In this document: positions 3,801-62,722 of the stretch, in pieces
Numbering within the stretch: position 1 is the stretch's first letter
Layout of the letters: each line of letters opens with the position of its first letter
Source: a virus
DNA: 64,000 bases
Strand: one strand, 5' to 3'
IMG/VR virus record: IMGVR_UViG_3300021142_002226
Span: 62,001-126,000 of that record
Translations under genes and position numbers: made by a program
The notes under the pieces: generated by a model
What the model saw: the letters and a program-made list of their open reading frames with translations, nothing else
Told to the model about the DNA's origin: nothing
The model's database searches: none

Positions 3801-6800
3801 TTAGGCTATATTAGTATTAGTATTTAATATGTTTGCCGCATATTTTGCTTTATCTGCCCAACCTGATTGCGGTGACCCTTCATATATTCTGAAAACCCAA
3901 TCATTTGTATAATTAATATCAGTACTTGTTTTAAAAGTATTAAAATTTTTATATGATGGTAATTCGAGAAGGGTATATTCTAATTGTACCTGCAATGTCA
4001 TATTAGAAAATGCGGCTGTAATAAGGTTTTGAGTATTTTCTGTTTTAGGTATTTCTACTAATTTACTAACACCACATCTACTTAATAAATCAAGCCAAAA
4101 TTTATCTTTATTTGGATTCCAATTAGAATATGTACCAGCGGCTTGTTCAAAGTTAGGTATTTCAATACCTTTACTTTTTGCATAGATAAGTACTTTAGAT
4201 CTTCTACCGTCAGCACCTACCCATTGAACTATACCAGCAGCATAAGTTTGTTTTGGGTCATTATAACTTAACTTTTTATTATATTTTGTTACAATTTTCG
4301 GATTGAAATTAGATTCCACTTTAAAGTTTCCAACTAATGATGCCGCCGCTTCTTTACTAAATCCATTTTGGATATAAAAATTATATGCCAATATAGCTGA
4401 GTTTTTATCATCAGAAACATTGGTATCTTGTGGTACACCTGCAAATGGTGGAAGTTCTTTCATGTTCGGTGCAATAGTTTTTCCATAACTAATATTATTT
4501 TCGTTATTATTTATACCATAAAACACAATTCCATTTTTTTGGTCATAACAACCTAAATATCTATAATTTGCCCCAGCAAGTGTATCAAATTTTAAATCAT
4601 TGTTTGAGCTAACATTTAGAAAAACATATTCTTCAGAATTTTCATTATTAACCGTTATCGTATAAATATTATTCGTATCACTTGCAGTTTGTGATACGTT
4701 TTTATAGTACAACATATAATATGCTTGCCATATATTACTCTTACTATAATCTATAGCATCGGTGTAATCATTTATAAAATTGATTTTAGGGGTTGTTTTT
4801 TTGTTTGGGTCAAATAAATCTGAACCATATGTTGATGCGGCATCTGAAACCAATAATTTTTGCTGTTTTAATTTATTACTTGGCGTTAACAATTTCAAAA
4901 CATCGTCATTAGTCTTAGCTAAACCCAAGGCTGTAATTGTTTTACCTATTTCATTTGTTGATAAATCATCTTTATGAGCATTTAAAAGGTCTTGTAATGA
5001 GTCAGTTGCTGGGTTGAAAAAATATGTTGTTTCTTGTCCTTCCCAATTAGCTTTCAACTGTAATACTATATCAACCATATATATCCTTATCACAGAAGGA
5101 TCTGGATTAGCAGTTGCACCATTAGCAAAATATTTTGCTCTATTATAAACCATAATTAAAACAATCTTATAAATCTCATTTGTTAATGAAAAATGAGATA
5201 CAAGCCAAGAATAAAGTATTTGCATACCATCAAAAGACACATACGTTCTGTTAGCATTCGATTTTTGATAGAATGTACCAAATCCAGAACCAACATTGTT
5301 TCTATCATTATATATTTGCCCAGTAGTAGTATTGTTTGATGTGTTTTGTGCCGAAGTTTTAGTTAAACCTGTCAAAGTTAATTGTAAACTATTCAGAATA
5401 TCACTTTTATTTGTTGTTTTCTTATTAAATGGTTGTCTTACACCCTTAAATGTGGTTGTCATATTATTCGCCGTAATATTGTGCTCAACGTTAGTTATCC
5501 AATAACTACCATAAAATAAAGGTACATTTTTAAGATAAAAATATGTGAGAGGTTGTATCATAACATTACCCATTGATTCTACTTGACAAGTATATGAACG
5601 TGTCTCCATCAAGGAAAATAAATTACCAGAAGCAACTTTTTGTGATGTTTCAGAACCATTATTGGTCAAATTAATTGCAGCTTTTATTGATTCTTCGGTA
5701 TTACTAAATTCACTCGTATCTAATCTAACTTTACTGAACATATTCTGGTTTTTGTTACCAAAATCAACAATAAATGATGTTATTTTACCTGTTTTAACAT
5801 CATCAGGTACTAAATTTTTATTATCATTGAAATAAGGTTTGATTGGTTGTAAATCCAATGGAAATGAACCTGAATATGATGGTTTAGAGTTGCTCGTTAA
5901 TTTTTTACTATCAACGCTTGATGTATGATTGATCCATTGTAAAATAAATGAAGGGTTTGAATCTATTCTATCTATATCTAAATGTGTTCCAAAAATATTA
6001 TTTGCATATTTATCAAGTTCATTGTTAACGTTTGTAATTGGTGATAAATAATCAACATATGTATTCACTGGATGTAAAATAAAATCATTGTGTTGTGCAA
6101 TATCACTGAATAAACCGAATACAGCTTTATTTGTTATCTCTGAATTTATTACATCGTTATCTGAATTGTTTGTTGTCGAAAATTTAAGTTGTAAACTATC
6201 AGACAAAGCTATCAAATCAATTAATATTTCACTACCAATATCGTTATTAGATCGGTCAACTATATTAATATATTCTATTAAATGTTTAGATTGATCTTTA
6301 TCAAAAACACTATTTTCACCTGTATAAGAATTAATTGTTGTATCACAAACGGATATATCTTTGAACAAGTAATTATAAAATAAACCATTATTAATTTTAC
6401 CCAATTCATCTAAAACATTAATAGAATCATATGGGACTTCTAATATTTTATTTGATTTATTATTGAATGCTATATATTTGTCAAAAAGATTTTTTACATT
6501 ATAATATGTTTTAGATTTTAATTCATCAATAGTATTTTCTTTCTGAATTTGTTTTAGTAAAGATGATGCGGCATTAGAATTAAGGAAGTTAGAATTTATA
6601 GAATTTTTTATTGTATCAAGATATAAGTTTATATATTTTACATTTTTATAGTAAAACGTACTTACAAATCCTGTCAAATAATTAGTAATTTCTTTTGTAA
6701 GCAAATTTTTATTTTTTTCAAAGTATTGACCAGCACCAACTATTTGCCATAAGTATGAATCATTACTACTATTATAATTCAAAGTTGTATGAAGATTACT

Positions 6801-9776
6801 TACGGAATCACCAAAAGGATCATTCACAATGGAAGAATCTGAAGAATCTGAAAATATCCAAACATTTACAATACTTTTTAAATAATCTGTAATTAAATTG
6901 AACATCAATACTAAATTATCCTCGTCAAATTTAACGTTCAAGTAGTTGAAAAACTCATTAATCAAAAAATTATAGTAATATACACCAAAATTATAATTGT
7001 TGTTTTCACCATAATATAATTTTTTTGCTTTAGCTGCAACTGAATCACTATAGTATTTGAAAGCATCGTCATAGAAATATTTTTTGACTAAATTTGTTGT
7101 TTCGATTGACGTATCAGCATTATTTGCTGGGTCAATAATGTAATCCCCAAATACAAGTTTTCTGGTATAATATTTTACCTGACCAGCATCAGGATTAGAA
7201 TTATCATCAGTTAATATACTCAATGGTTTAATCCCATATATTTCACCAGCATAAGAATCTGAAACCGTTAACTCGCTTGGACTAACTTTGAAAATAACAT
7301 CAGGTCTAAATATAAAATTTTGATAGTTTGTATATAAAGAATCCTCTTGACCAGGTACTGCAACAGAACCAACGGTGCTGTAATTATTGATTGGTAATTT
7401 TTGCGCAGAAAATTCTTCTAATACTTTTTTATTGCGTATATATTGAGCATTTGTTAATACCGCATTGATTTTTGCGCTGATATAAAAATAGTCACAAAAA
7501 TAATAATTATAACTCGAATAACCTACCAATAACATTTGTGCATCTTCTTGAGTTAGTTCGAATTGATCTGTTTTGTAACCTTGTATGTCATTTTCATCTA
7601 ATGTCATTATACCCTTCATCAAAGTCTCAAAGTTATAATTACCATCATATTTTTTGAAATAATCTTGTGTCGAGTTTGGTTGATAGACTTTATATGAAGA
7701 TGCAAAATCTAAAAATATTGACTCAAATGTTTTAAATTTTTGAATATCTATTGCGTCATACAAATCATATAATCTTAATCTTAATGGGTCATTCGATGTA
7801 TTTAAATTTGAATAACCATCGACTGATTTATATATGTTGGTTGTCAAATTTTGTCCAATTTCACTTATTGATAATTCAGATGTCAAATTATCACGATTTT
7901 CACCATTTCCTATATATGTATCTTTTGTACCAAGTTGTAAACCTCCCATACCAGTATCGTACCACAAAAACCTTGACGTGTTCATCATTACTGATCTATT
8001 ATCAAAAATAATACTATCTATATTACCGCTTTTGTTAAATAAATAAAGATTATCTGCATCATAAATATCTGAATTATTAACATCTAAATTTATATATTTT
8101 TTTGCCAAATTTCCTGATTCAAAAGCATACTTTTGAATAACATATGTTTTAGGTTTATAATTTATAGGTAAATATTCATTAATATTTTTTTGTCTATCAC
8201 TACTATTATATGCTGCTTCTTCACCATTATAACCTTTGATTAATTCGTATTTATTATTTGTTATAATCTTAGTGTTATTCTCTTTTTTGTTTTGAGTTAA
8301 TAACTTATTTGGGTAAAAAAAACCTCCAGCAGATGGATATAATAATACCACCAATTGTCCACTAACATTATTACTATCGAACTCATTAGTATCTTTATAA
8401 GTTTTTTCAGAATCCCAAAATTTTAATAAAAAATCTGTTACAACAGATATACTATCTAATAATGCATTATTAAATAAACCATTTCCAATAATTGCACCAA
8501 AATCATTCGTAAGATCATCATAAACAACGGATTCTAATGTATTTGTTATACTTGTACCAAATTTTGAAACCGATTCTTCTCCAAAAAATCTACCAAATAA
8601 AATTTTATAAATAAAATAAGATATTGGACTTATATCTTGAGTTTTTGATAGAGCATTATTTTTCGCAGTAAATTTCAATAGCTTTATAAGCGGTATATTT
8701 CCAACAAATGATATACTCATATCTAACATAAGTGTATTCATTTGTGTTAAAATTGATAGAATATCAGCTTTTTCTAAACCACCTCTCAAATATGAATATT
8801 TCATTCTACATATACACATGTAGAATTTATACATAAATTGATCGTTCTTATCAAACGTTATATTTTTAACTTGTTTGAAGTAATTAATTATATTATTACT
8901 TGTTGTTAATGTTGATGAACCTAATGAATCTTTTATAATACTATAGTGACCCATGAAATTAATACCGTCATTGTATGATTTAAATGATTTTACAAACCCA
9001 TTTTCAGCACCATAATGGTGGAATAATGTGTTAGTATCATATTTTGTGTCTGAAAAATATCCTTCAGTTGCACCTATTTGATTATTTACACCATTTTTAT
9101 CAATCATGAAATTATAATAATCTTTCATGAAGTTAGAAAATGTACCGTAACCAAATTTAGGAATAAATGTATTGTTTATACCAGTTACAAATTTATCATT
9201 GATAATTGGTATACTTGCAAACTCAACAATATTGTTTTTTTGATCATAACCCCCATAGATTGGTGATGTATTAGAATTTAAATTTAGATTAACTTTTAAT
9301 ACTTTATCTAAATCAATATTTAATGTATATGTGTTTTTACCAAATAATCTATTATTATAATTGTCCGAATGAAAATGATATAATGCCCCAAGATATAAAA
9401 TCAATGGCATTGGTAATTCTGTAATACCAACATTAGATTTAAATAGTGCAACTATATTATCTTTTGAAAATAAAAATTTATTGGATTCTGTTTGTAAAGA
9501 TGAAATTATATAGTGAGCAGCTTCTTTAAAATTACCTGTGATATCACTATTTGTTCCAATAGAAAATGATTCAGCAAAACAAATATTGTTAAGTGGAGTA
9601 GCATAATATGAGATTCTATCTGTATTTTTTGTAATTCTACTTGTTATACCGTATTCTAAATACGTTGAAAATAAACCTTTTTGATAATCTGTATAATCAC
9701 TAAATTGATTTTTAGTATAATTATCTATTACACTCGGATTTGTCAAATATTCATTTGTAATGTTCTTAATATCCAT
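3801..9776 (-). CDS. Giant tail/baseplate protein with C-terminal tail lysozyme domain
   Basis: 1991 residues. Most of the protein is Asn/Tyr/Ser-rich and beta-structured, as in phage tail proteins. Around residues 1400-1475 is a hub-like stretch (YTCQVESMGNVMIQPLTYFY ... VPLFYGSYWITNVEHNI). Residues 1804-1985 form a phage tail lysozyme-type domain: AYNFYIQNGFSKEAAASLVG, NFKVESNF with the likely catalytic Glu at about 1831, then AAGIVQWV and GRRSKVLIYAK. It should locally cut peptidoglycan during injection, as the gp5 lysozyme does in T4, although that enzyme is unrelated in fold. It ends the large tail cluster; the next gene upstream stops one base before its start. Confidence 0.8.
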   Translation of the reverse strand: MDIKNITNEYLTNPSVIDNYTKNQFSDYTDYQKGLFSTYLEYGITSRITKNTDRISYYATPLNNICFAESFSIGTNSDITGNFKEAAHYIISSLQTESNKFLFSKDNIVALFKSNVGITELPMPLILYLGALYHFHSDNYNNRLFGKNTYTLNIDLDKVLKVNLNLNSNTSPIYGGYDQKNNIVEFASIPIINDKFVTGINNTFIPKFGYGTFSNFMKDYYNFMIDKNGVNNQIGATEGYFSDTKYDTNTLFHHYGAENGFVKSFKSYNDGINFMGHYSIIKDSLGSSTLTTSNNIINYFKQVKNITFDKNDQFMYKFYMCICRMKYSYLRGGLEKADILSILTQMNTLMLDMSISFVGNIPLIKLLKFTAKNNALSKTQDISPISYFIYKILFGRFFGEESVSKFGTSITNTLESVVYDDLTNDFGAIIGNGLFNNALLDSISVVTDFLLKFWDSEKTYKDTNEFDSNNVSGQLVVLLYPSAGGFFYPNKLLTQNKKENNTKIITNNKYELIKGYNGEEAAYNSSDRQKNINEYLPINYKPKTYVIQKYAFESGNLAKKYINLDVNNSDIYDADNLYLFNKSGNIDSIIFDNRSVMMNTSRFLWYDTGMGGLQLGTKDTYIGNGENRDNLTSELSISEIGQNLTTNIYKSVDGYSNLNTSNDPLRLRLYDLYDAIDIQKFKTFESIFLDFASSYKVYQPNSTQDYFKKYDGNYNFETLMKGIMTLDENDIQGYKTDQFELTQEDAQMLLVGYSSYNYYFCDYFYISAKINAVLTNAQYIRNKKVLEEFSAQKLPINNYSTVGSVAVPGQEDSLYTNYQNFIFRPDVIFKVSPSELTVSDSYAGEIYGIKPLSILTDDNSNPDAGQVKYYTRKLVFGDYIIDPANNADTSIETTNLVKKYFYDDAFKYYSDSVAAKAKKLYYGENNNYNFGVYYYNFLINEFFNYLNVKFDEDNLVLMFNLITDYLKSIVNVWIFSDSSDSSIVNDPFGDSVSNLHTTLNYNSSNDSYLWQIVGAGQYFEKNKNLLTKEITNYLTGFVSTFYYKNVKYINLYLDTIKNSINSNFLNSNAASSLLKQIQKENTIDELKSKTYYNVKNLFDKYIAFNNKSNKILEVPYDSINVLDELGKINNGLFYNYLFKDISVCDTTINSYTGENSVFDKDQSKHLIEYINIVDRSNNDIGSEILIDLIALSDSLQLKFSTTNNSDNDVINSEITNKAVFGLFSDIAQHNDFILHPVNTYVDYLSPITNVNNELDKYANNIFGTHLDIDRIDSNPSFILQWINHTSSVDSKKLTSNSKPSYSGSFPLDLQPIKPYFNDNKNLVPDDVKTGKITSFIVDFGNKNQNMFSKVRLDTSEFSNTEESIKAAINLTNNGSETSQKVASGNLFSLMETRSYTCQVESMGNVMIQPLTYFYLKNVPLFYGSYWITNVEHNITANNMTTTFKGVRQPFNKKTTNKSDILNSLQLTLTGLTKTSAQNTSNNTTTGQIYNDRNNVGSGFGTFYQKSNANRTYVSFDGMQILYSWLVSHFSLTNEIYKIVLIMVYNRAKYFANGATANPDPSVIRIYMVDIVLQLKANWEGQETTYFFNPATDSLQDLLNAHKDDLSTNEIGKTITALGLAKTNDDVLKLLTPSNKLKQQKLLVSDAASTYGSDLFDPNKKTTPKINFINDYTDAIDYSKSNIWQAYYMLYYKNVSQTASDTNNIYTITVNNENSEEYVFLNVSSNNDLKFDTLAGANYRYLGCYDQKNGIVFYGINNNENNISYGKTIAPNMKELPPFAGVPQDTNVSDDKNSAILAYNFYIQNGFSKEAAASLVGNFKVESNFNPKIVTKYNKKLSYNDPKQTYAAGIVQWVGADGRRSKVLIYAKSKGIEIPNFEQAAGTYSNWNPNKDKFWLDLLSRCGVSKLVEIPKTENTQNLITAAFSNMTLQVQLEYTLLELPSYKNFNTFKTSTDINYTNDWVFRIYEGSPQSGWADKAKYAANILNTNTNIA

Positions 9777-12453: not shown

Positions 12454-12763
12454 AATATGCTAATTTCAATTTCATAACTGCCTTATAATCGGACATACTC
12501 TGGTCTAAAGGGTATGGTACTCTTATAGAAGCATTATCTGGTATATTCCATTCCAAACCACCATATTCTGGGTTAGCTAACAAGATTAACCAACCAAAAT
12601 ATGGTGTACCATATTTATCTTGGCTTACTTTATCCATTCTTGATCTACCTACCTTATAAACAACAAATAAATCTGTTTCTTTTTCAGGTAAATGTACATA
12701 TGGAACGGTAATACCATTACCGTTATTTGTGAATTGATTATATCTGTTATAATATGAGCTCAT
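12443..12763 (-). CDS. 53: LysM-like baseplate wedge protein (gp53-type)
   Basis: 106 residues. The segment from about residue 36 (VYKVGRSRMDKVSQDKYG) through GWLILLANPE to WNIPDNASIRVPYP matches the pattern of LysM-like domains in baseplate proteins: an early turn, a central 'W..L...NP' helix and a final 'IP....I.VP' strand. T4 gp53, a wedge subunit, carries such a domain but is longer (196 aa), so only the LysM-like core is present here. The assignment rests on this motif and on its place among baseplate genes. A TATTTATA box lies 13 bases upstream. Confidence 0.6.
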   Translation of the reverse strand: MSSYYNRYNQFTNNGNGITVPYVHLPEKETDLFVVYKVGRSRMDKVSQDKYGTPYFGWLILLANPEYGGLEWNIPDNASIRVPYPLDQSMSDYKAVMKLKLAYYGE

Positions 12764-12776
12764 ATAAGTTATTTAA

Positions 12777-12784
12777 TATAAATA
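12777..12784 (-). promoter_or_regulatory. TATTTATA box (candidate late promoter)
   Basis: Minus-strand context ATATATTTATATTA, 13 bases before the ATG at 12763. It would drive the wedge protein and the two large tail genes downstream. Confidence 0.4.
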
Positions 12785-12807
12785 TATTTTGATAGAAAAT
12801 CAACAGT

Positions 12808-15800
12808 TTATTTTACAGGAGGAACAATACTTGAATATTGATATGTTAAAATATTATTCGTAGCATTATTTATTGCATTAATTGTAGTACCTGATGGACT
12901 ATTATTAATAGAACTATTAATTTTGGTATTTATTTGACTATAATTTTTCAATCTAACCTTAACACTATAATCAGAATCACCACCTTTTAACATTGTTCCA
13001 GATGATAATTTTAATTTTTGTGGTGTTGATGGATTTGAGTTAGCCAATGAATTAAAAGCTGTATTTGCATATGTTGTGTATGGTGCTGTTAATTTATTCA
13101 AATAAACAGCATTTAAATTATTAAATTCAGTCAGTATACTTTGATTATATTTATCAACATTATTGAAAAAATCGTTTAATATTTTTTTAATATTATCCAG
13201 TTTTTTAGATTTTTGTTTGTCAGTTAAATCAAGTTTATTAATATTTGTTGTATACGATGTCATCATAGCATTTACATGTGTATCTTTGTTTACAAATAAT
13301 GTATTAAAAAAATCCATCATGCTTGCTTCGGATAATGAACTCATAAGATAACCATTTACTTGACCTTTCAATGAATTTAAATTCATTTTAGTTGTTATAT
13401 CTGGGGTTGTGCCTGACAAAATATAATCAATATATGAATCAGTCAAACTGATTGTATAATTTAACACACTGGATAAATTATTCACATTTGTATTGAATTC
13501 CGAATCATTTGAATTAACTGATATTACATTATAATAATCATAGGATGATACACCATTTGCTGTACTGTTTGCTGGAAAAAGCAAATTATAAAGATCTTCA
13601 GTAACACTTGGTGTGTTTTTTTCCATTCTTACTTTTAAAGAATCTTGAGTACTTTTGATTGTAATTTGGTAATTTTGTGAATAATCATTCAAAATTAAAC
13701 CCAGAGTTTTGTTTGAAAATTCCAAAAATTCATGTGATAATTTTTCAAAAACATAAGTCAACTGGTATTTGTTTTGTAAATATGTTCCTTGACTATTAAC
13801 ATTTTTTAATGAAGGTATCAACCCTTGAAATTGGTAATCTACCACATTAGTTTGTTGGTCAAATTGGATTTGAGGTGTGGTAATTGAAAGATCAAAACTT
13901 TTTAATTCATAATTCGTTATATCACCTGTAGTAGTAATATTATTATCAATATCATCATTTTTTGGTAAAACCATATTTGCATCTATAGTTTTGAAATTTG
14001 TGTTATTCAATAACAATGGTGAATCAATAAACGTATTATCATTTGAAATTTGTCTAAAATAGTAGTAACCATTACCTAACATAAATTTAGTATTATCGTC
14101 CGATTTATAATTATAAACACGGCTCAAATCTATAATACTGTTAGATGATGTTCCAGTGTAATTATATATTGTTAAATATTGAGAAAAAGGATCATAACCA
14201 AACAATTGTGATACAGGTGTTTTTATTTTATTTTCGTTTCTAATAATCTCATATAATTGATTAACTTTACTATTTGTTGTTGTACCATCATACCCTGACA
14301 ACACAGCATTAATTCCTGAAAGATAGGTGTTAAATGAATATATATTGTTTGTTTGATCAATATTTTTTTGTTGTTTGGTTAATAATAAATTATTTGTATA
14401 ATTACTAAGTTGTGTTGAAATGTAATTTTGAAAGATTATTTTTAAATCTTTAGAATTCAATTCCTTATTATATCTATCAAATAAACCAGTGTCTATAAAC
14501 CAATATACAAGTAAATCATTATACAATTTATTTGTTATATCTATATTAAAATGTGTGATCAAAGCTTTTGTGTAATCATAATTTGTTGGTTTTTTCAAAT
14601 ACAAACCTGCTACATCTGAAGAATCGTATTCACCATCCGTCATATATCCTGGATTATATGATTGTCCAGTAAATACTGAAGATATTTTTGCTGTTGGGTT
14701 AAATCTTGGTGTTGTATAATACAGCATCTGAGGGTATAAATGTAATTGAGTTCCATAAAGATTATTAAAACTTGAACCACCAAACTGGCTATAATCACAA
14801 TAATCTTTTACATTAACATAGTTACTATATTTTGCTTTAGAACCAAAAAAACTATTAACAGTTGTTGTATCCGTTGTTCCACCAGTAACAATATTTTTAA
14901 TTATATTGTCCATGAATGTTTTATCATCATTATCTGTCGCTCCAGTATAATTTATATTCAATATTTTTGATAATAAAAATGATGATTGATTTGATGAATC
15001 AAATACTAATGAATCAGAATAATTCAAAACATTAGTTATAAACGAATCATAAAAGTTAGTGAATAGTTTTTTATAATTAACATTAAATATTTCAATTGAT
15101 GCGTTCTGACCATATTCTGATATATAACTCGCTTCACCAAAATTTGTGTTAGTCAATAAAGTCCATGCTGTGGTATAAATTAATGGTTTACCAGCAACGT
15201 TTAATTGTGCATTATTATTAACTTTATCATCGAATAGTCTTTGATAATAATTTTGTCCATAAATACCTGGATTTTCCGTTGGGTCGTAAGAAAATGCATA
15301 TGGTTGAAATACAATAGAAATATCATAAATAATACCAACACTCTTAGCCAATGAATAATTATTACCAGACAAATCTATCAAATCTTTTGTTGTTGTATCT
15401 GGAACACCAATGGTGCCTTTTGGAACATCGTATGTAGAATCTGGTATTTGGTATTCTTTAGCTTTTTGTACAATCGGTATTAAATCGAGAGTATTATTAT
15501 CAAAAAATGATGTTTCTTGATTTACTAATTGTCTTTCTACTGGATCAATATTAGCGGAAGTTCTTGAATCATATACATCAGCATTTGCATAATAATTGAA
15601 TGATAATGCATTTTGTAATTCATTTATAGGTGTTCTTAAACCTGATCCACCAATATATTTAAAACTTAAACTGACGTTAGCGATCATTGGTTGTACACCT
15701 ATACCTTCTGGATTTAAATCAAAAACCAAAGGTTCATATGATATATTACAAGAATTTATCAAAATTTTTGTGTTATAGAAATCGCCAATTCTTAATACGC

Positions 15801-38795: not shown

Positions 38796-41700
38796 ATGAG
38801 TGAATATAGTATCCCAATGGAGTCTGTGGAAAAGTTTCTTTCTGGTCATGGTGAAGAGAAATATATTGTAAATATTGAATATGAATCTGACACAAATACA
38901 ATATATAAAATCAAAGATATACCAGAACAAGGGATTGTTATTGAGAAAGAATTCTTAAAATCTTTCATGTGGATTAAAAACCTTAATGAAGTTAAAAAGA
39001 TTTGCAACTTTTATCATAACAACGATCTTACCATTAAACTCAAAATGAAGGAGTATGGCATCCAAATTAAAAAGCTAAGACACGATGACCACCCAAGATT
39101 AGTGAATGGTTACACATATTTAGTTACATGTGAACAAGGACACAAAAGAATGCTATCATTTTTTGCTGATGGTGGTATAAATTTCTACAACAAGTTTGAA
39201 AAGAGAATTAATTTAAAGGAATATTTTACAATATTATCCCCAATTGAACAGTATTTTATCAGTACTGGTAATCGTTTATATAAAGGTATTGAAGATTATA
39301 ATGAGTTGACAAAACTTATTTTTGACTTGGAAACAACAGGCTTGGATCCAAATATAGAAAAAATATTTTTGATTGGTTGTAAAACTAATAAAGGATATGA
39401 AAAATTGATTGAAATCGACATAAACGACCCTGAATCTGAAAAAAATGGGATTATACAATTCTTCAATGAAATCGATGCAATAAAACCAACTATCATTGGT
39501 GGTTACAATAGTGCAAACTTTGACTGGTATTTCATATTCAAAAGATGTCAAATTCTTGGTATTGATATTGAAAATATCGCAAAGACTCTGAAAAAAGATA
39601 AACAAATATACGTTACTGAACAAATACTAAAACTTGGTAACGAGGTTGAAAGATATATCCAAACAAATATGTTCGGATATAGTATTATCGATATTAACCA
39701 CTCAACCAGAAGAGCACAAGCTATTGATTCTGATATGAAATTTACCAGATTGAAATATGTTTGTAAATATAATGATGTTGCTAAATCAAATCGTGTATAC
39801 ATCGTTGGTGAAAATATTGGAAAATATTGGAAAAGCGACAAGAAATATTATTTTGATGATAAAAGTGGTTCATATTCTGAAATTAAACCAAAAGTTGAGT
39901 ATATGGATTTTATCACGAGACAGATTGTTAAAGATAATCCAGACAAAATATTTATTTTCGGTGATAATGATCTAAGAGAAGGTTTTGGTGGTCAGGCCAA
40001 AGAAATGAGAAACGAAAAAAACTCTATTGGTATTGTCACAAAAAAAGCGCCAGGTACAACTGATGATTGTTATTATAATGATGATGAGTTTGAATTAAAT
40101 AAAAAGAAAATAAATCTCGACCTAAAAATTATAATTAACGAAATAAAGAAAGGTAAATGTATTGTTATACCTTCTTCTGGTATTGGTACAGGTTTAGCTA
40201 AATTACAGGAAAAAGCTCCAAAAACCTTCAAATTTTTACAAAATTCTTTAAACTTATTAAAGGTTTATTGTGATAGTTTTGTAGAATGTGATGGTAAATA
40301 TATTGTTAACAGATACTTGATGGATGACCTTTGGGAAACACTCGAAGTTGATAATATTTACAATCAATCATCATTTATGTTGGCTAAATTAATACCAACA
40401 AGTTATCAAAGAGTATCTACAATGGGTACTGCTGGACTATGGAAAATGTTGATGTTAACATGGTCTTATGAAAATGATTTAGCAATTCCAATAAATGATG
40501 AAAAACGAGATTTCGTTGGTGGATTATCAAGACTGTTTAAAGTTGGTTTTTCTAAGAAATTAAGAAAGATGGACTATTCATCTCTTTATCCTTCTATACA
40601 GCTTGCACATGAGGTGTTCCCATCTTGTGATATAACACATGTAATGAAATCTTTACTTAAATATTTTCACTCTGAACGTTTTAAAGCAAAGAATCTCGCT
40701 AAGAAATACGGTAAAGCTGGTGATAAACAAATGAAAAGTTTTTATGACCGTAAACAATTACCTCTGAAAATATTCATCAACTCAATGTTCGGTGCCCTTG
40801 GAGCACCAACAGCATTTAACTGGGCTGAAATGGATGTTGCTGAAGGTATTACTGCGAGAGCAAGACAATACTTAAGGATAATGGTTAAATTTTTTATGGC
40901 TAAAGGTTATGAACCATTAGTACTTGATACGGATGGTGTTAACTTTATGGCACCAGAATCTGGAGAGGAAAATTTTAGATACATTGGTCTGGGTAATAAT
41001 GAAGCTGTAATTAAAGATAAAGAATACACAGGAGTTGATGCAGTGATTGCTGAATTTAATGATTTATTCATGAAAGGTGAAATGGCATTAAGTTTGGATG
41101 GTACATGGCCGTCAACCATAAATCTTGCTCGTAAAAACTATGCCTTACTTGAAGATAGTGGTAAAGTAAAATTGACTGGTAATAGTATCAAATCTAAAAA
41201 AATGCCAGCCTATATTGAAGAATTTTTGGATAAAGCCTTGGTTTTACTATTAAATGAAAAAGGTTCTGAATTTGTTAACTACTACAATACCTACGTTCAA
41301 AAAATATATAATAAAGAAATTCCACTTTCAAAAATTGCAACAAAAGCAAGAGTTAAAAAAACTTTAGAAGATTATAAAAATCGTGGGCTTAACAAGAACG
41401 GTAAACCATTACCAAAGCAAGCTCATATGGAATTAGCCATAATCAATAAATTAAATATTAATCTTGGAGATACTTTATATTACGTTAATAATGGTACAAA
41501 ATTAACTCAAGGCGATATTCAAACAGTAAAAGTTACAAAAAAAGGTTGGTCAGAAAAAGATATAGAAGATCATATAACTCATTATGGTAAATCACCAGTG
41601 GGTCTAACATCGATAAATAAATTAAATTGTTATATGTTAGATAGCAAAGAATTGGAAGATAAACCAGATATGTTAGGTGAGTACAATGTAGCAAAATATT

Positions 41701-42002
41701 TGGATGCTTTCAACAAGAGAATCAAACCGCTTTTAGTTGTCTTTAGTGAAGATATTAGAGCTGGTTTACTATTAAAAAACCCTTCAGATAAAAAGGATTA
41801 TTTAAAAAATGAGTTGAAGCTAATCAATGGTATACCATATAAAGAGGCTGACCAAGATACTATACAAGATTTATTTACACCATCGGAACTTGAAAATGTT
41901 TACTGGAAAAAAATGAATTATAATCCAAATTTCTGGTTTAATGATAAAATAAACTTTACTGTTCCAGGGTTAGATAGGGTGGTTGAGATAGAAAATATAT
42001 AA
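38796..42002 (+). CDS. 43: Family B DNA polymerase (gp43-like) with an inserted domain
   Basis: 1068 residues (T4 gp43 is 898). The 3'-5' exonuclease has Exo I FDLETTG (Asp177, Glu179), Exo II GYNSANFDW (about 236-244) and Exo III YLMDD (507-511). The polymerase has motif A MDYSSLYPS (592-600), motif B KIFINSMFGALG and motif C VLDTDGVNF, where Gly replaces the usual Ser after DTD. Between Exo II and Exo III, at about 377-488, sits an extra domain: KIFIFGDNDLREGFGGQAK, then GIVTKKAPG and IVIPSSGIGTGLAKL. It matches a widespread standalone phage/bacterial family (FGDN...GGQA...TKK.P...GIGTGLA) and looks macro-domain-like. It replicates phage DNA; the insert's function is unknown. Confidence 0.92.
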   Translation: MSEYSIPMESVEKFLSGHGEEKYIVNIEYESDTNTIYKIKDIPEQGIVIEKEFLKSFMWIKNLNEVKKICNFYHNNDLTIKLKMKEYGIQIKKLRHDDHPRLVNGYTYLVTCEQGHKRMLSFFADGGINFYNKFEKRINLKEYFTILSPIEQYFISTGNRLYKGIEDYNELTKLIFDLETTGLDPNIEKIFLIGCKTNKGYEKLIEIDINDPESEKNGIIQFFNEIDAIKPTIIGGYNSANFDWYFIFKRCQILGIDIENIAKTLKKDKQIYVTEQILKLGNEVERYIQTNMFGYSIIDINHSTRRAQAIDSDMKFTRLKYVCKYNDVAKSNRVYIVGENIGKYWKSDKKYYFDDKSGSYSEIKPKVEYMDFITRQIVKDNPDKIFIFGDNDLREGFGGQAKEMRNEKNSIGIVTKKAPGTTDDCYYNDDEFELNKKKINLDLKIIINEIKKGKCIVIPSSGIGTGLAKLQEKAPKTFKFLQNSLNLLKVYCDSFVECDGKYIVNRYLMDDLWETLEVDNIYNQSSFMLAKLIPTSYQRVSTMGTAGLWKMLMLTWSYENDLAIPINDEKRDFVGGLSRLFKVGFSKKLRKMDYSSLYPSIQLAHEVFPSCDITHVMKSLLKYFHSERFKAKNLAKKYGKAGDKQMKSFYDRKQLPLKIFINSMFGALGAPTAFNWAEMDVAEGITARARQYLRIMVKFFMAKGYEPLVLDTDGVNFMAPESGEENFRYIGLGNNEAVIKDKEYTGVDAVIAEFNDLFMKGEMALSLDGTWPSTINLARKNYALLEDSGKVKLTGNSIKSKKMPAYIEEFLDKALVLLLNEKGSEFVNYYNTYVQKIYNKEIPLSKIATKARVKKTLEDYKNRGLNKNGKPLPKQAHMELAIINKLNINLGDTLYYVNNGTKLTQGDIQTVKVTKKGWSEKDIEDHITHYGKSPVGLTSINKLNCYMLDSKELEDKPDMLGEYNVAKYLDAFNKRIKPLLVVFSEDIRAGLLLKNPSDKKDYLKNELKLINGIPYKEADQDTIQDLFTPSELENVYWKKMNYNPNFWFNDKINFTVPGLDRVVEIENI

Positions 42003-61330: not shown

Positions 61331-62722
61331 ATGGGTATTTATAGAACATATTTTGATAAAAATAATACGATTGTTAAGAATAGTTATGTAAACACGGCTA
61401 AAAACCCTGTTTCAGAACTATATTGCGGCGCAAATATTAGTCGATTTCTTTTCTTTTGTAATTTTTCTGAGCTATCGAGCATGGCTGCCGATAAGAGTGT
61501 AATTTTAGATAGTAACACAAGACATATATTAAAAATTAAAAATACATCTGATTTTGATGTAAAAGATTATCTCAATATTGATAATAATCTTGCTATTGGT
61601 GATGGTGAAAGAGCAACATCAATAGATCTGGAGCTCAGACCAATGACACAATTTTGGGATGAGGGTACAGGTTATGATTTTAATCCAGTATTACTTCTGG
61701 GTGATCAAAGTTTTAAATCCGAAGCATCTAATTGGTACCAAGCGACAATAAATAATCGCTTTCATGTTAGTGGTGCAACAGACACCAACATGGTTATTGG
61801 TACACAACATATGGATAACGGAGATGAAAATATTGAGATAGATATTACTAATTATATTAATGCTATTTTGACAACTGGTGTTACGGTTACAACATATACA
61901 GGAGTTTCACACAACTACCAAGGTTTTTGTTTGAAATATACAGATCAAACCGAAAATGCTATGACTGGTATTACAAGAACCCTCGGTTTATATACAAAAT
62001 ATACCCAAACATTTTTCGAACCTTTTATAGAAACTTATTACGATGATTTGATAAAAGATGATCGTGTAAATTTTTACCCAAATAAGGATAATAATTTATT
62101 TTTATATGTTAATGTTAGAGGTAATGCGACTAATTTAGATAGTTTACCTACATGTACCATAAGTGGTATCACATATACGGTACAACAAAAGAATAAAGGT
62201 GTATATTTTGTAACGGTACCAGCTGCAACAAGCAATATGTTCGATACTTATACCCAATATAACGATATTTGGTCTGGTTTGGTTGTAAATGGTGTTAGTT
62301 TACCAAACGTTTCACTTAAATTTATACCGCTGGATAATTCAAGTTATTATCAGATAGGTTCAAACACTTCAGAACCAGTTAAATATGCGGTTTCATTGAG
62401 TGGAATTAAATTTGGGGAAGTTCTTGACCAAGGAAATATTAGAAGAGTTAATGTATTATTGAGAAAGCCATATACCTTAAATGATTACGACTTTGTTGAT
62501 AACGTATTCTATAGATTATATGTAAAACAAGGTAATAATTTGGTAGAAGTATTAGATTGGCAAGAAATAGGTAAGTCTTATGATAGCCATTTTTTTAATA
62601 TTAATACAACTTGGATGATACCACAAACTTATTATATTGACATCAAAACTGTTATAGCTGGCGAAGTGAATATTTATAATGAGGAATTAAAATTCACAGT
62701 TAACAGTAAAATTTTTAATTAA
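61331..62722 (+). CDS. Virion structural protein with DNRLRE-like layout
   Basis: 463 residues. The N-terminal 230 residues (GIYRTYFDKNNTIVKNSYVN, FLFFCNFSELSS, IDLELRPMTQFWDEGTGYDF, ASNWYQATI, IDITNYINAIL, GFCLKYT) follow the order of DNRLRE-like beta-sandwich domains in surface proteins. The C-terminal half has further beta domains. Probably an outer tail or baseplate component. The box TATTTATC lies only 3 bases before the ATG. Confidence 0.6.
   Translation: MGIYRTYFDKNNTIVKNSYVNTAKNPVSELYCGANISRFLFFCNFSELSSMAADKSVILDSNTRHILKIKNTSDFDVKDYLNIDNNLAIGDGERATSIDLELRPMTQFWDEGTGYDFNPVLLLGDQSFKSEASNWYQATINNRFHVSGATDTNMVIGTQHMDNGDENIEIDITNYINAILTTGVTVTTYTGVSHNYQGFCLKYTDQTENAMTGITRTLGLYTKYTQTFFEPFIETYYDDLIKDDRVNFYPNKDNNLFLYVNVRGNATNLDSLPTCTISGITYTVQQKNKGVYFVTVPAATSNMFDTYTQYNDIWSGLVVNGVSLPNVSLKFIPLDNSSYYQIGSNTSEPVKYAVSLSGIKFGEVLDQGNIRRVNVLLRKPYTLNDYDFVDNVFYRLYVKQGNNLVEVLDWQEIGKSYDSHFFNINTTWMIPQTYYIDIKTVIAGEVNIYNEELKFTVNSKIFN

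Follow-up and report, generated by a model that had tools for sequence, protein, structure and literature searches.

A DUF7831 domain, possibly of macro type, inserted in the exonuclease region of a family B DNA polymerase from a large phage

The window analysed here is a stretch of 64,000 nucleotides (positions 62,001 to 126,000) of the virus record IMGVR_UViG_3300021142_002226, which has 190,177 bases in total and comes from a large phage. It contains a gene for a family B DNA polymerase (PolB) whose product carries an additional domain, DUF7831, within its exonuclease region (Table 1). This domain gives the strongest Pfam match of the protein (PF25176, 144.3 bits against a cut-off of 27, covering positions 2-117 of the 118 of the profile); DNA_pol_B and DNA_pol_B_exo1 also exceed the Pfam cut-off, and an RNase_H_2 match was obtained as well. 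In PHROGs the inserted segment corresponds to phrog_2072, a family with no function assigned there, and DUF7831 is present as a single copy in the whole record. An earlier note on this DNA, made from the letters alone, had described residues 377-488 (39924-40260) as a complete, separate module with IFGDN, GFGGQA, TKKAPG and GIGTGLA motifs. In fact, all these motifs are present as described, and the segment falls inside the DUF7831 match, after Exo II and before Exo III. As the insert lengthens the loop by ~115 aa in comparison with most relatives, the greater part of the 170-residue excess over T4 gp43 given in that note, though not the whole of it, is accounted for. An intein or homing insertion was considered and rejected, since Pfam at E <= 0.1 lists only DUF7831, DNA_pol_B, DNA_pol_B_exo1/exo2 and RNase_H_2 for this protein, and no Hint/intein or homing nuclease domain.

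Table 1. The PolB gene of the window and the elements of its product (window positions; rows are the aligned PolB or domain sequences described in the text)
Feature	Position	Strand	Evidence
PolB gene with inserted domain	38796..42002	+	1068 aa, no internal stop; Pfam DNA_pol_B, DNA_pol_B_exo1; PHROGs phrog_262
Exo I (D177, E179)	39324..39332	+	D and E in 102/102 rows (20 with, 82 without insert)
Exo II (N238, D243)	39507..39524	+	N and D in 102/102 rows
Inserted module with linkers (residues ~362-493)	39879..40274	+	Segment missing in relatives without insert (alignment, loop lengths)
DUF7831 domain proper (residues 368-483)	39897..40244	+	PF25176, E 1.8e-42; AlphaFold2 pLDDT 93.6, pTM 0.87 (residues 359-493)
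FGDN motif (residues 388-391), candidate first ligand loop	39957..39968	+	G389, D390, N391 in 71/71 domain sequences
GxGGQA motif (residues 396-401)	39981..39998	+	G396, G399, A401 in 71/71
TK (T415, K416)	40038..40043	+	71/71; K416 aligned to catalytic K80 of DarG by block match
GIGTG loop (residues 462-466), candidate second ligand loop	40179..40193	+	G464 in 71/71, G466 in 68/71; block match to macro loop
Exo III (Y507, D511), immediately 3' of insert	40314..40328	+	Y and D in 102/102 rows
Polymerase motifs A (D593, Y598), B (K658, N662, G666) and C (D711, D713)	40572..40934	+	102/102 rows, except D713 gap in one row

The comparison with other polymerases showed that the segment is an insertion. 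A whole-protein search retrieved 24 loci, 20 of which span the region and were aligned (L016, L017, L019 and L022 were omitted because their match begins after the segment). The segment is present in two relatives, L002 and L003; in the other 18, a short variable loop connects a conserved hairpin of NGxY type with the Exo III helix at this place. For one of the insert-free, full-size relatives, G002 (192,370 bases), the whole record was without a DUF7831 match. The lack of the segment in these relatives and the existence of a standalone family rule out an ordinary exonuclease subdomain, the alternative that the earlier note had named for its own proposal. A PolB profile search, from which the best 80 of 572 relatives were kept, brought the survey to 112 PolB open reading frames (ORFs), some contigs being included twice. 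DUF7831 was found in at least 20 of them, corresponding to at least 18 distinct contigs besides the window's record (L002 is the same as L224, and L040 the same as L225), always at the same place. The loop measures 180-181 aa from anchor to anchor in the 20 insert-bearing ORFs, against 56-83 aa in 80 others; the 12 remaining ORFs were not parsed by the loop pattern, and none of them has a DUF7831 match. Because 18 other contigs carry the same arrangement, an assembly chimera and a chance occurrence are ruled out.

Some of the insert-bearing contigs are near-copies, and the 18 contigs reduce to 14 different sequences in the PolB tree. In a PolB tree of 85 rows, calculated with the insert removed, these 14 rows fall on one side of a single branch (SH-aLRT 96), so that one change accounts for all carriers; the tree was built with a quick method and midpoint rooting, and its long branches were flagged. 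In a tree of the domain itself (135 rows), 13 PolB domains and a single standalone row, L049, form a group with a support of 98, and the few columns available do not resolve the branching within the PolB domain group. These trees indicate that DUF7831 most likely entered PolB once, with vertical descent afterwards, and are also compatible with a second move. Separately, we observed that the polymerase of L025 is divided in two ORFs ~4 kb apart (5947-8541 and 12671-13951), the first matching up to residue 712 (motif C) and the second from residue 768; this gene may be split, or interrupted by an insertion resembling an intron or intein.

The carriers retain their polymerase and exonuclease residues. 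Thirteen catalytic positions (Exo I-III and motifs A-C) are identical in all 102 PolB rows that reach 850 aa (20 have the insert and 82 lack it), the sole exception being the gap at D713 in one row. Within the domain, 14 positions are invariant in an alignment of 71 DUF7831 sequences, and the window has all of them. This alignment contains 70 of 79 DUF7831 sequences plus that of the window; L039 (identical to the window's) and eight sequences from annotated records were omitted, and the PolB domains with altered motifs described below, which were found later, are not part of it. In a smaller set that includes annotated records D390, N391, T415 and K416 are still invariant and E407 is not. The PolB protein of L003 is identical to that of the window, and four lineages with intact motifs share with L003 56-66% identity in the domain and 59-70% in its flanks; by this measure, the domain is almost as well conserved in them as the polymerase. 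The dN/dS of the domain is 0.035, 0.066, 0.227 and 0.245 in the four computable intact pairs with more than three differences, and 0.48 for L003 against L224, a pair with three differences only; for L003 against L040 it was not computable. These ratios show that DUF7831 is under purifying selection in PolB.

Outside this polymerase, DUF7831 occurs in phages, bacteria and giant viruses. The small standalone family with the same signature, also anticipated in the earlier note, is matched by 96 phage records, and most of the 40 matches listed are hypothetical proteins. Predicted structures matching DUF7831 were found in Tupanvirus, Hyperionvirus and Yasminevirus (BFVD entries A0A6N1NMG5, A0A3G5ADK8 and A0A5K0U977, respectively) and in the uncultured phages cr272_1, cr130_1 and cr131_1, presumably crAss-like, as their names suggest. 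Among the best 80 of 136 relatives found with the domain, 8 lie in PolB ORFs, 54 in short ORFs and 18 in ORFs of at least 1,227 aa. For these 18 giant ORFs, several of which are cut by the end of the locus, Pfam was run on 13 and PHROGs on four. One giant phage ORF (L109, 510-10286) has an AlkB-like oxygenase, DUF7831 and a NADAR-like domain in a row, the NADAR match reaching 33 bits in one scan (below the Pfam cut-off) and 38 bits in another (above it), and could be regarded as a candidate DNA-adduct reversal protein on the basis of these domains. DUF7831 is accompanied by a cpYpsA SLOG domain in L089 and L056 and by an oxygenase match below the cut-off in L063. It lies in an ORF of 3454 residues in which Pfam finds three families of N4 virion RNA polymerase (L047), in one ORF with a helicase by Pfam that is Dda-like in PHROGs (L100), and in internal virion proteins according to PHROGs in L102 and L104, the former with a DprA-like match as well. 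Pfam shows only DUF7831 in L050, L113, L086, L053 and L116, and PHROGs adds nothing beyond the DUF7831 family in L060.

The genes next to standalone DUF7831 were also surveyed, in 115 loci that form 69 clusters, and only the neighbour clusters that could be named were used, most of the large ones being reading-frame noise of GC-rich genomes. Genes for an NMN adenylyltransferase-Nudix protein and for NAMPT lie within 3.5 kb of DUF7831 in four of the 69 clusters (L046, L049, L079 and L112); Pfam confirms both NAD+ salvage genes in L046, L049 and L112, and in L079 it was scanned on the first gene only. In L046 (4989-8190) and L049 (4995-8792) the DUF7831 gene is followed within ~1 kb by the NMN adenylyltransferase-Nudix gene and then by the NAMPT gene, an arrangement that makes both clusters candidate NAD+ restoration operons. 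L046 is also the non-PolB locus with the highest identity (53%) among the best 80 of 136 relatives. The link with NAD is only suggestive, because rIIB (8), rIIA (7) and helicase genes (7 of the 69 clusters) are commoner neighbours. Control loci without DUF7831 gave no match to NAMPT or NadM, a weak control because these are loci of other kinds. In an Acidobacteria locus (L128, 4494-8517) DUF7831 is found between a gene for single-stranded DNA-binding protein (SSB) and a 545-aa ORF without Pfam match, followed by an SSB-like ORF and an RNase H gene. Some assemblies contain two or three DUF7831 loci.

With regard to the fold, AlphaFold2 with 71 sequences gave a confident model of the isolated domain (Table 1), with the order strand, helix, strand, short helix, strand, long helix, strand and helices. 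The model of full-length PolB was poor (pLDDT 61, pTM 0.39) and cannot place the domain, its interface or the direction of its cleft. When the Foldseek candidates were realigned with VIA-align, TARG1 with bound ADP-ribose (4j5s) ranked second (Z 5.2, rmsd 3.9, 110 residues, model residues 8-134). The designed hydrolase 4jgk ranked seventh (Z 4.7, 109 residues); a DarG-like query finds 4jgk together with the macrodomain 5m31 and the TARG1 chains 4j5r and 4j5s, so that 4jgk is built on a macro scaffold. A match to triosephosphate isomerase (E 0.037) covers only the GTGLA loop and its helices and was taken as a coincidence.

At the sequence level we compared DUF7831 with three sets of macro domains, including a DarG-like set of 30 sequences from 31 loci chosen by their TK motif. 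HHalign aligned DUF7831 with the DarG-like set at a pairwise E of 0.002-0.003, with TK on TK and GxG on GxG; the two other sets gave E values of 0.2 and 0.09, without a useful match. With the full alignment the score was 24.5, against 19.0 for the reversed one, and it was reached by 0 of 150 column shuffles and 1 of 150 block shuffles. This control depends on the trimming of the alignment, as shown below, and was not relied on. An ungapped scan of three conserved DUF7831 blocks against the three macro sets (nine scans) placed the equivalent macro loop first in five scans, third in two and outside the top four in two. The best places of the TK block were RWIINFPTKRHW in the DarG-like set and PYLIAAPTMRVP in the second macro set, those of the GTG block were IAIPPLGCGLGGLDWE and VAIPGLGTGVGRVAPE, and that of the FGDN block was IVNAANSSLLGGGGVD in the MacroD set. 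The three blocks tend to fall on macro loops, and their order is kept in the DarG-like set. Because a PolB control profile reached block scores as high as those of the macro profiles, only the positions of the blocks carry the argument; the blocks were picked after the resemblance to macro domains had been noticed, and the macro sets are related to each other, two of them being small (8 and 5 rows). The lysine of the PTK motif is residue 80 from the Met both in the DarG-like query and in its gap-free alignment to 5m31, which we take to be the Thermus aquaticus DarG. K416, invariant in 71/71 sequences, aligns with this K80 in an overall weak alignment to a set that had been chosen by its TK motif; in the third macro set this place is occupied by M. 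As K80 has been described as critical for DarG catalysis (excerpt of PMC11543638), K416 would, provided that this is indeed a macro domain, occupy a catalytic position.

ADP-ribose can serve bacteria as a chemical mark directed against the DNA of phages. DarT ADP-ribosylates single-stranded DNA and thereby halts the replication of the phage genome (excerpt of PMC11481870), and Escherichia coli phages escape DarTG by mutation of their polymerase (excerpts of PMC11481870 and PMC11348598). On this background, the explanation that we tentatively prefer, to which we would give slightly less than an even chance as a whole, is that a minimal DarG/TARG1-like macro-type domain directed at ADP-ribose may have been built into the replicase for counter-defence. 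Its parts are of different strength. Several convergent lines of evidence, each of them weak individually, support rather than establish a macro-type fold, and ADP-ribose is supported to the same extent as its probable ligand; hydrolytic catalysis, DNA as the substrate and a role in counter-defence we infer. According to this proposal, a minimal macro-type alpha/beta domain was inserted, probably once, in the exonuclease loop that precedes Exo III in a T4-like phage PolB, and would have been inherited vertically since then. It would most likely bind ADP-ribose or an ADP-ribosyl group and, where its motifs are intact, as in the window, would hydrolyse it, so that DarT-type DNA marks or ADP-ribose-derived defence molecules could be removed at the replicase. 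The removal of the adduct in cis would then have the same effect as escape via mutation of the polymerase. A more specific version, in which the replicase has an integral DNA de-ADP-ribosylase that would erase DarT-type marks from the single-stranded template or from a primer end that is blocked next to the proofreading site, gained in one PolB clade and with its loops altered in sublineages, seems to us unlikely, if worth considering. The data would also fit action on a small-molecule form of ADP-ribose, or use of the domain as a sensor.

Several observations weigh against this proposal. Foldseek against the PDB gave nothing at E <= 0.001 (the best value was 0.31) and no macro domain among the 50 matches listed, which is in itself no proof against a macro fold. 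In VIA-align TARG1 ties with CbiL, and Z values below 8 are common and not decisive alone. The TARG1 hydrolase also uses a catalytic aspartate, and DUF7831 has A or S in its place. Only four strands of at least three residues are present in the domain model; as the macro core has been described as six-stranded (excerpt of PMC9503650), the domain would be a reduced macro form. The HHalign probability was only 11-14%, and the gap-trimmed alignment scored 17.3, against 19.6 when reversed, a value reached by 12 of 150 column shuffles and 63 of 150 block shuffles. Pfam Macro (PF01661) has no match in the window's whole record, which also lacks matches to the NADAR and NAPRTase families, and profile searches of the PDB sequences with the domain retrieved no macro chain among the matches listed. 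In each of the eight pairs computable for both, the domain has a higher dN/dS than the remainder of the gene. The macro-like, ADP-ribose-type identity put forward in the earlier note therefore stands in part: the TARG1 and macro scaffold hits of VIA-align, the block positions, the HHalign register and the NADAR-like, SLOG and NAD+ salvage context favour it, and Foldseek and the HHalign probability and control do not.

The domains with altered motifs also have to be weighed here. In six of the 18 contigs (L229, L230, L231, L233, L234 and L235) the ligand-loop motifs are altered and yet the domain is kept: FGDN is changed to YSDN, YSEN or YDEN and GGQA to GEQS, GEES or GQQS, the GTGLA loop is also changed, and the lysine is retained in five of them and replaced by R in L230. 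The motifs were thus changed or lost, once or repeatedly, in part of the insert-bearing clade, with retention of the domain itself. The length of the altered domains is constant, and their dN/dS is 0.10 (L230-L235) and 0.07 (L229-L235). Together with the intact lineages, they constitute a natural series of altered and intact domains. This retained length and constraint would suit a non-catalytic sensor of ADP-ribose or of a nucleotide that tunes the polymerase or its proofreading to the NAD+ state of the infected cell. The fold and context evidence would fit such a sensor as well as a hydrolase, and its location just before Exo III might allow a bound ligand to act on the exonuclease. However, a pure binder would not need the invariant lysine equivalent to DarG K80, the full-length model is too poor for an interface to be seen, and we consider a sensor rather unlikely. 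The same lineages could also indicate that the present role of the domain is mostly structural, as a part of the replicase surface that contacts DNA or proteins such as SSB or the clamp, whatever its ancestral activity was. The SSB gene that adjoins DUF7831 in the Acidobacteria locus, and the fact that insert-free relatives have the same polymerase and exonuclease residues, are in line with this possibility, which we find improbable, given that the ligand motifs are unchanged in 12 of the 18 contigs and in the window. In addition, two altered domains share only 48% and 50% identity with that of L232 while the polymerases are 77-84% identical, a divergence far faster than that of their own polymerase and expected if the main function has been lost. 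Finally, it is quite improbable that the domain is another nucleotide or sugar-phosphate enzyme of Rossmann-like fold that resembles macro domains by coincidence: many Rossmann-type folds reach Z 4-5 in VIA-align, the GIGTGLA loop resembles that of triosephosphate isomerase, Foldseek had no significant match and only four strands are modelled, but the resemblance to the isomerase is limited to one loop and its helices, and the match to macro loops involves three distinct conserved blocks and, in the DarG-like set, keeps their order.

Bacteria use NAD+ chemistry, including ADP-ribosylation of DNA, against phages, and mutations of the polymerase are one reported way out (excerpts of PMC11481870 and PMC11348598). 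If the minimal macro-type reading is true, an ADP-ribose-type domain beside the proofreading site would represent a new way to protect replication and would provide the first functional handle on DUF7831. Since nature offers relatives that lack the domain, relatives that have it intact and relatives in which its motifs are altered, its function can be tested directly. In the open-access literature searched, DUF7831 is named in no paper and we found no description of a polymerase with a macro-like insert, the available parts of PMC7824862 and PMC12487901 included; within that literature, the architecture appears to be undescribed, as the earlier note had supposed.

The domain is like the standalone DUF7831 proteins of phages and bacteria (PF25176, phrog_2072) in its full-length family match and its 14 invariant residues, and differs from them in being nested in the exonuclease domain of a replicative PolB. 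The polymerase, in turn, resembles the T4 gp43-like family B enzymes, of which jumbo-phage replicases have been described (excerpt of PMC7824862), in its conserved Exo I-III and motifs A-C, whereas the extra domain is missing in 18 of the 20 aligned relatives. With the macrodomains of DarG2 and TARG1, hydrolases of ADP-ribosyl groups on DNA or protein, the domain appears to share the macro order of its loop blocks and a lysine at the place of DarG K80, and TARG1 aligns with the model over 110 residues; however, the domain is shorter (~120 aa), is modelled with four strands where the macro core has six, is missing the part that joins the first loop helix to the TK strand, and gives no robust profile match. 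The giant ORFs in which DUF7831 coexists with NADAR-like, SLOG, AlkB-like, virion RNA polymerase and internal virion regions recall the polyvalent or virion-injected phage proteins with NAD or ADP-ribose domains (excerpt of PMC9503650), although the carrier in the window is a replicase and not a protein known to be ejected. The closest parallel to the proposed function would be the escape from DarTG by polymerase mutation and the phage anti-DarT factors, for which active and inactive alleles have been reported (excerpt of PMC11481870): in both cases the polymerase would be a site where ADP-ribosylated DNA matters, but the phage of the window would use a domain added to its replicase instead of point mutations or a separate antitoxin mimic.
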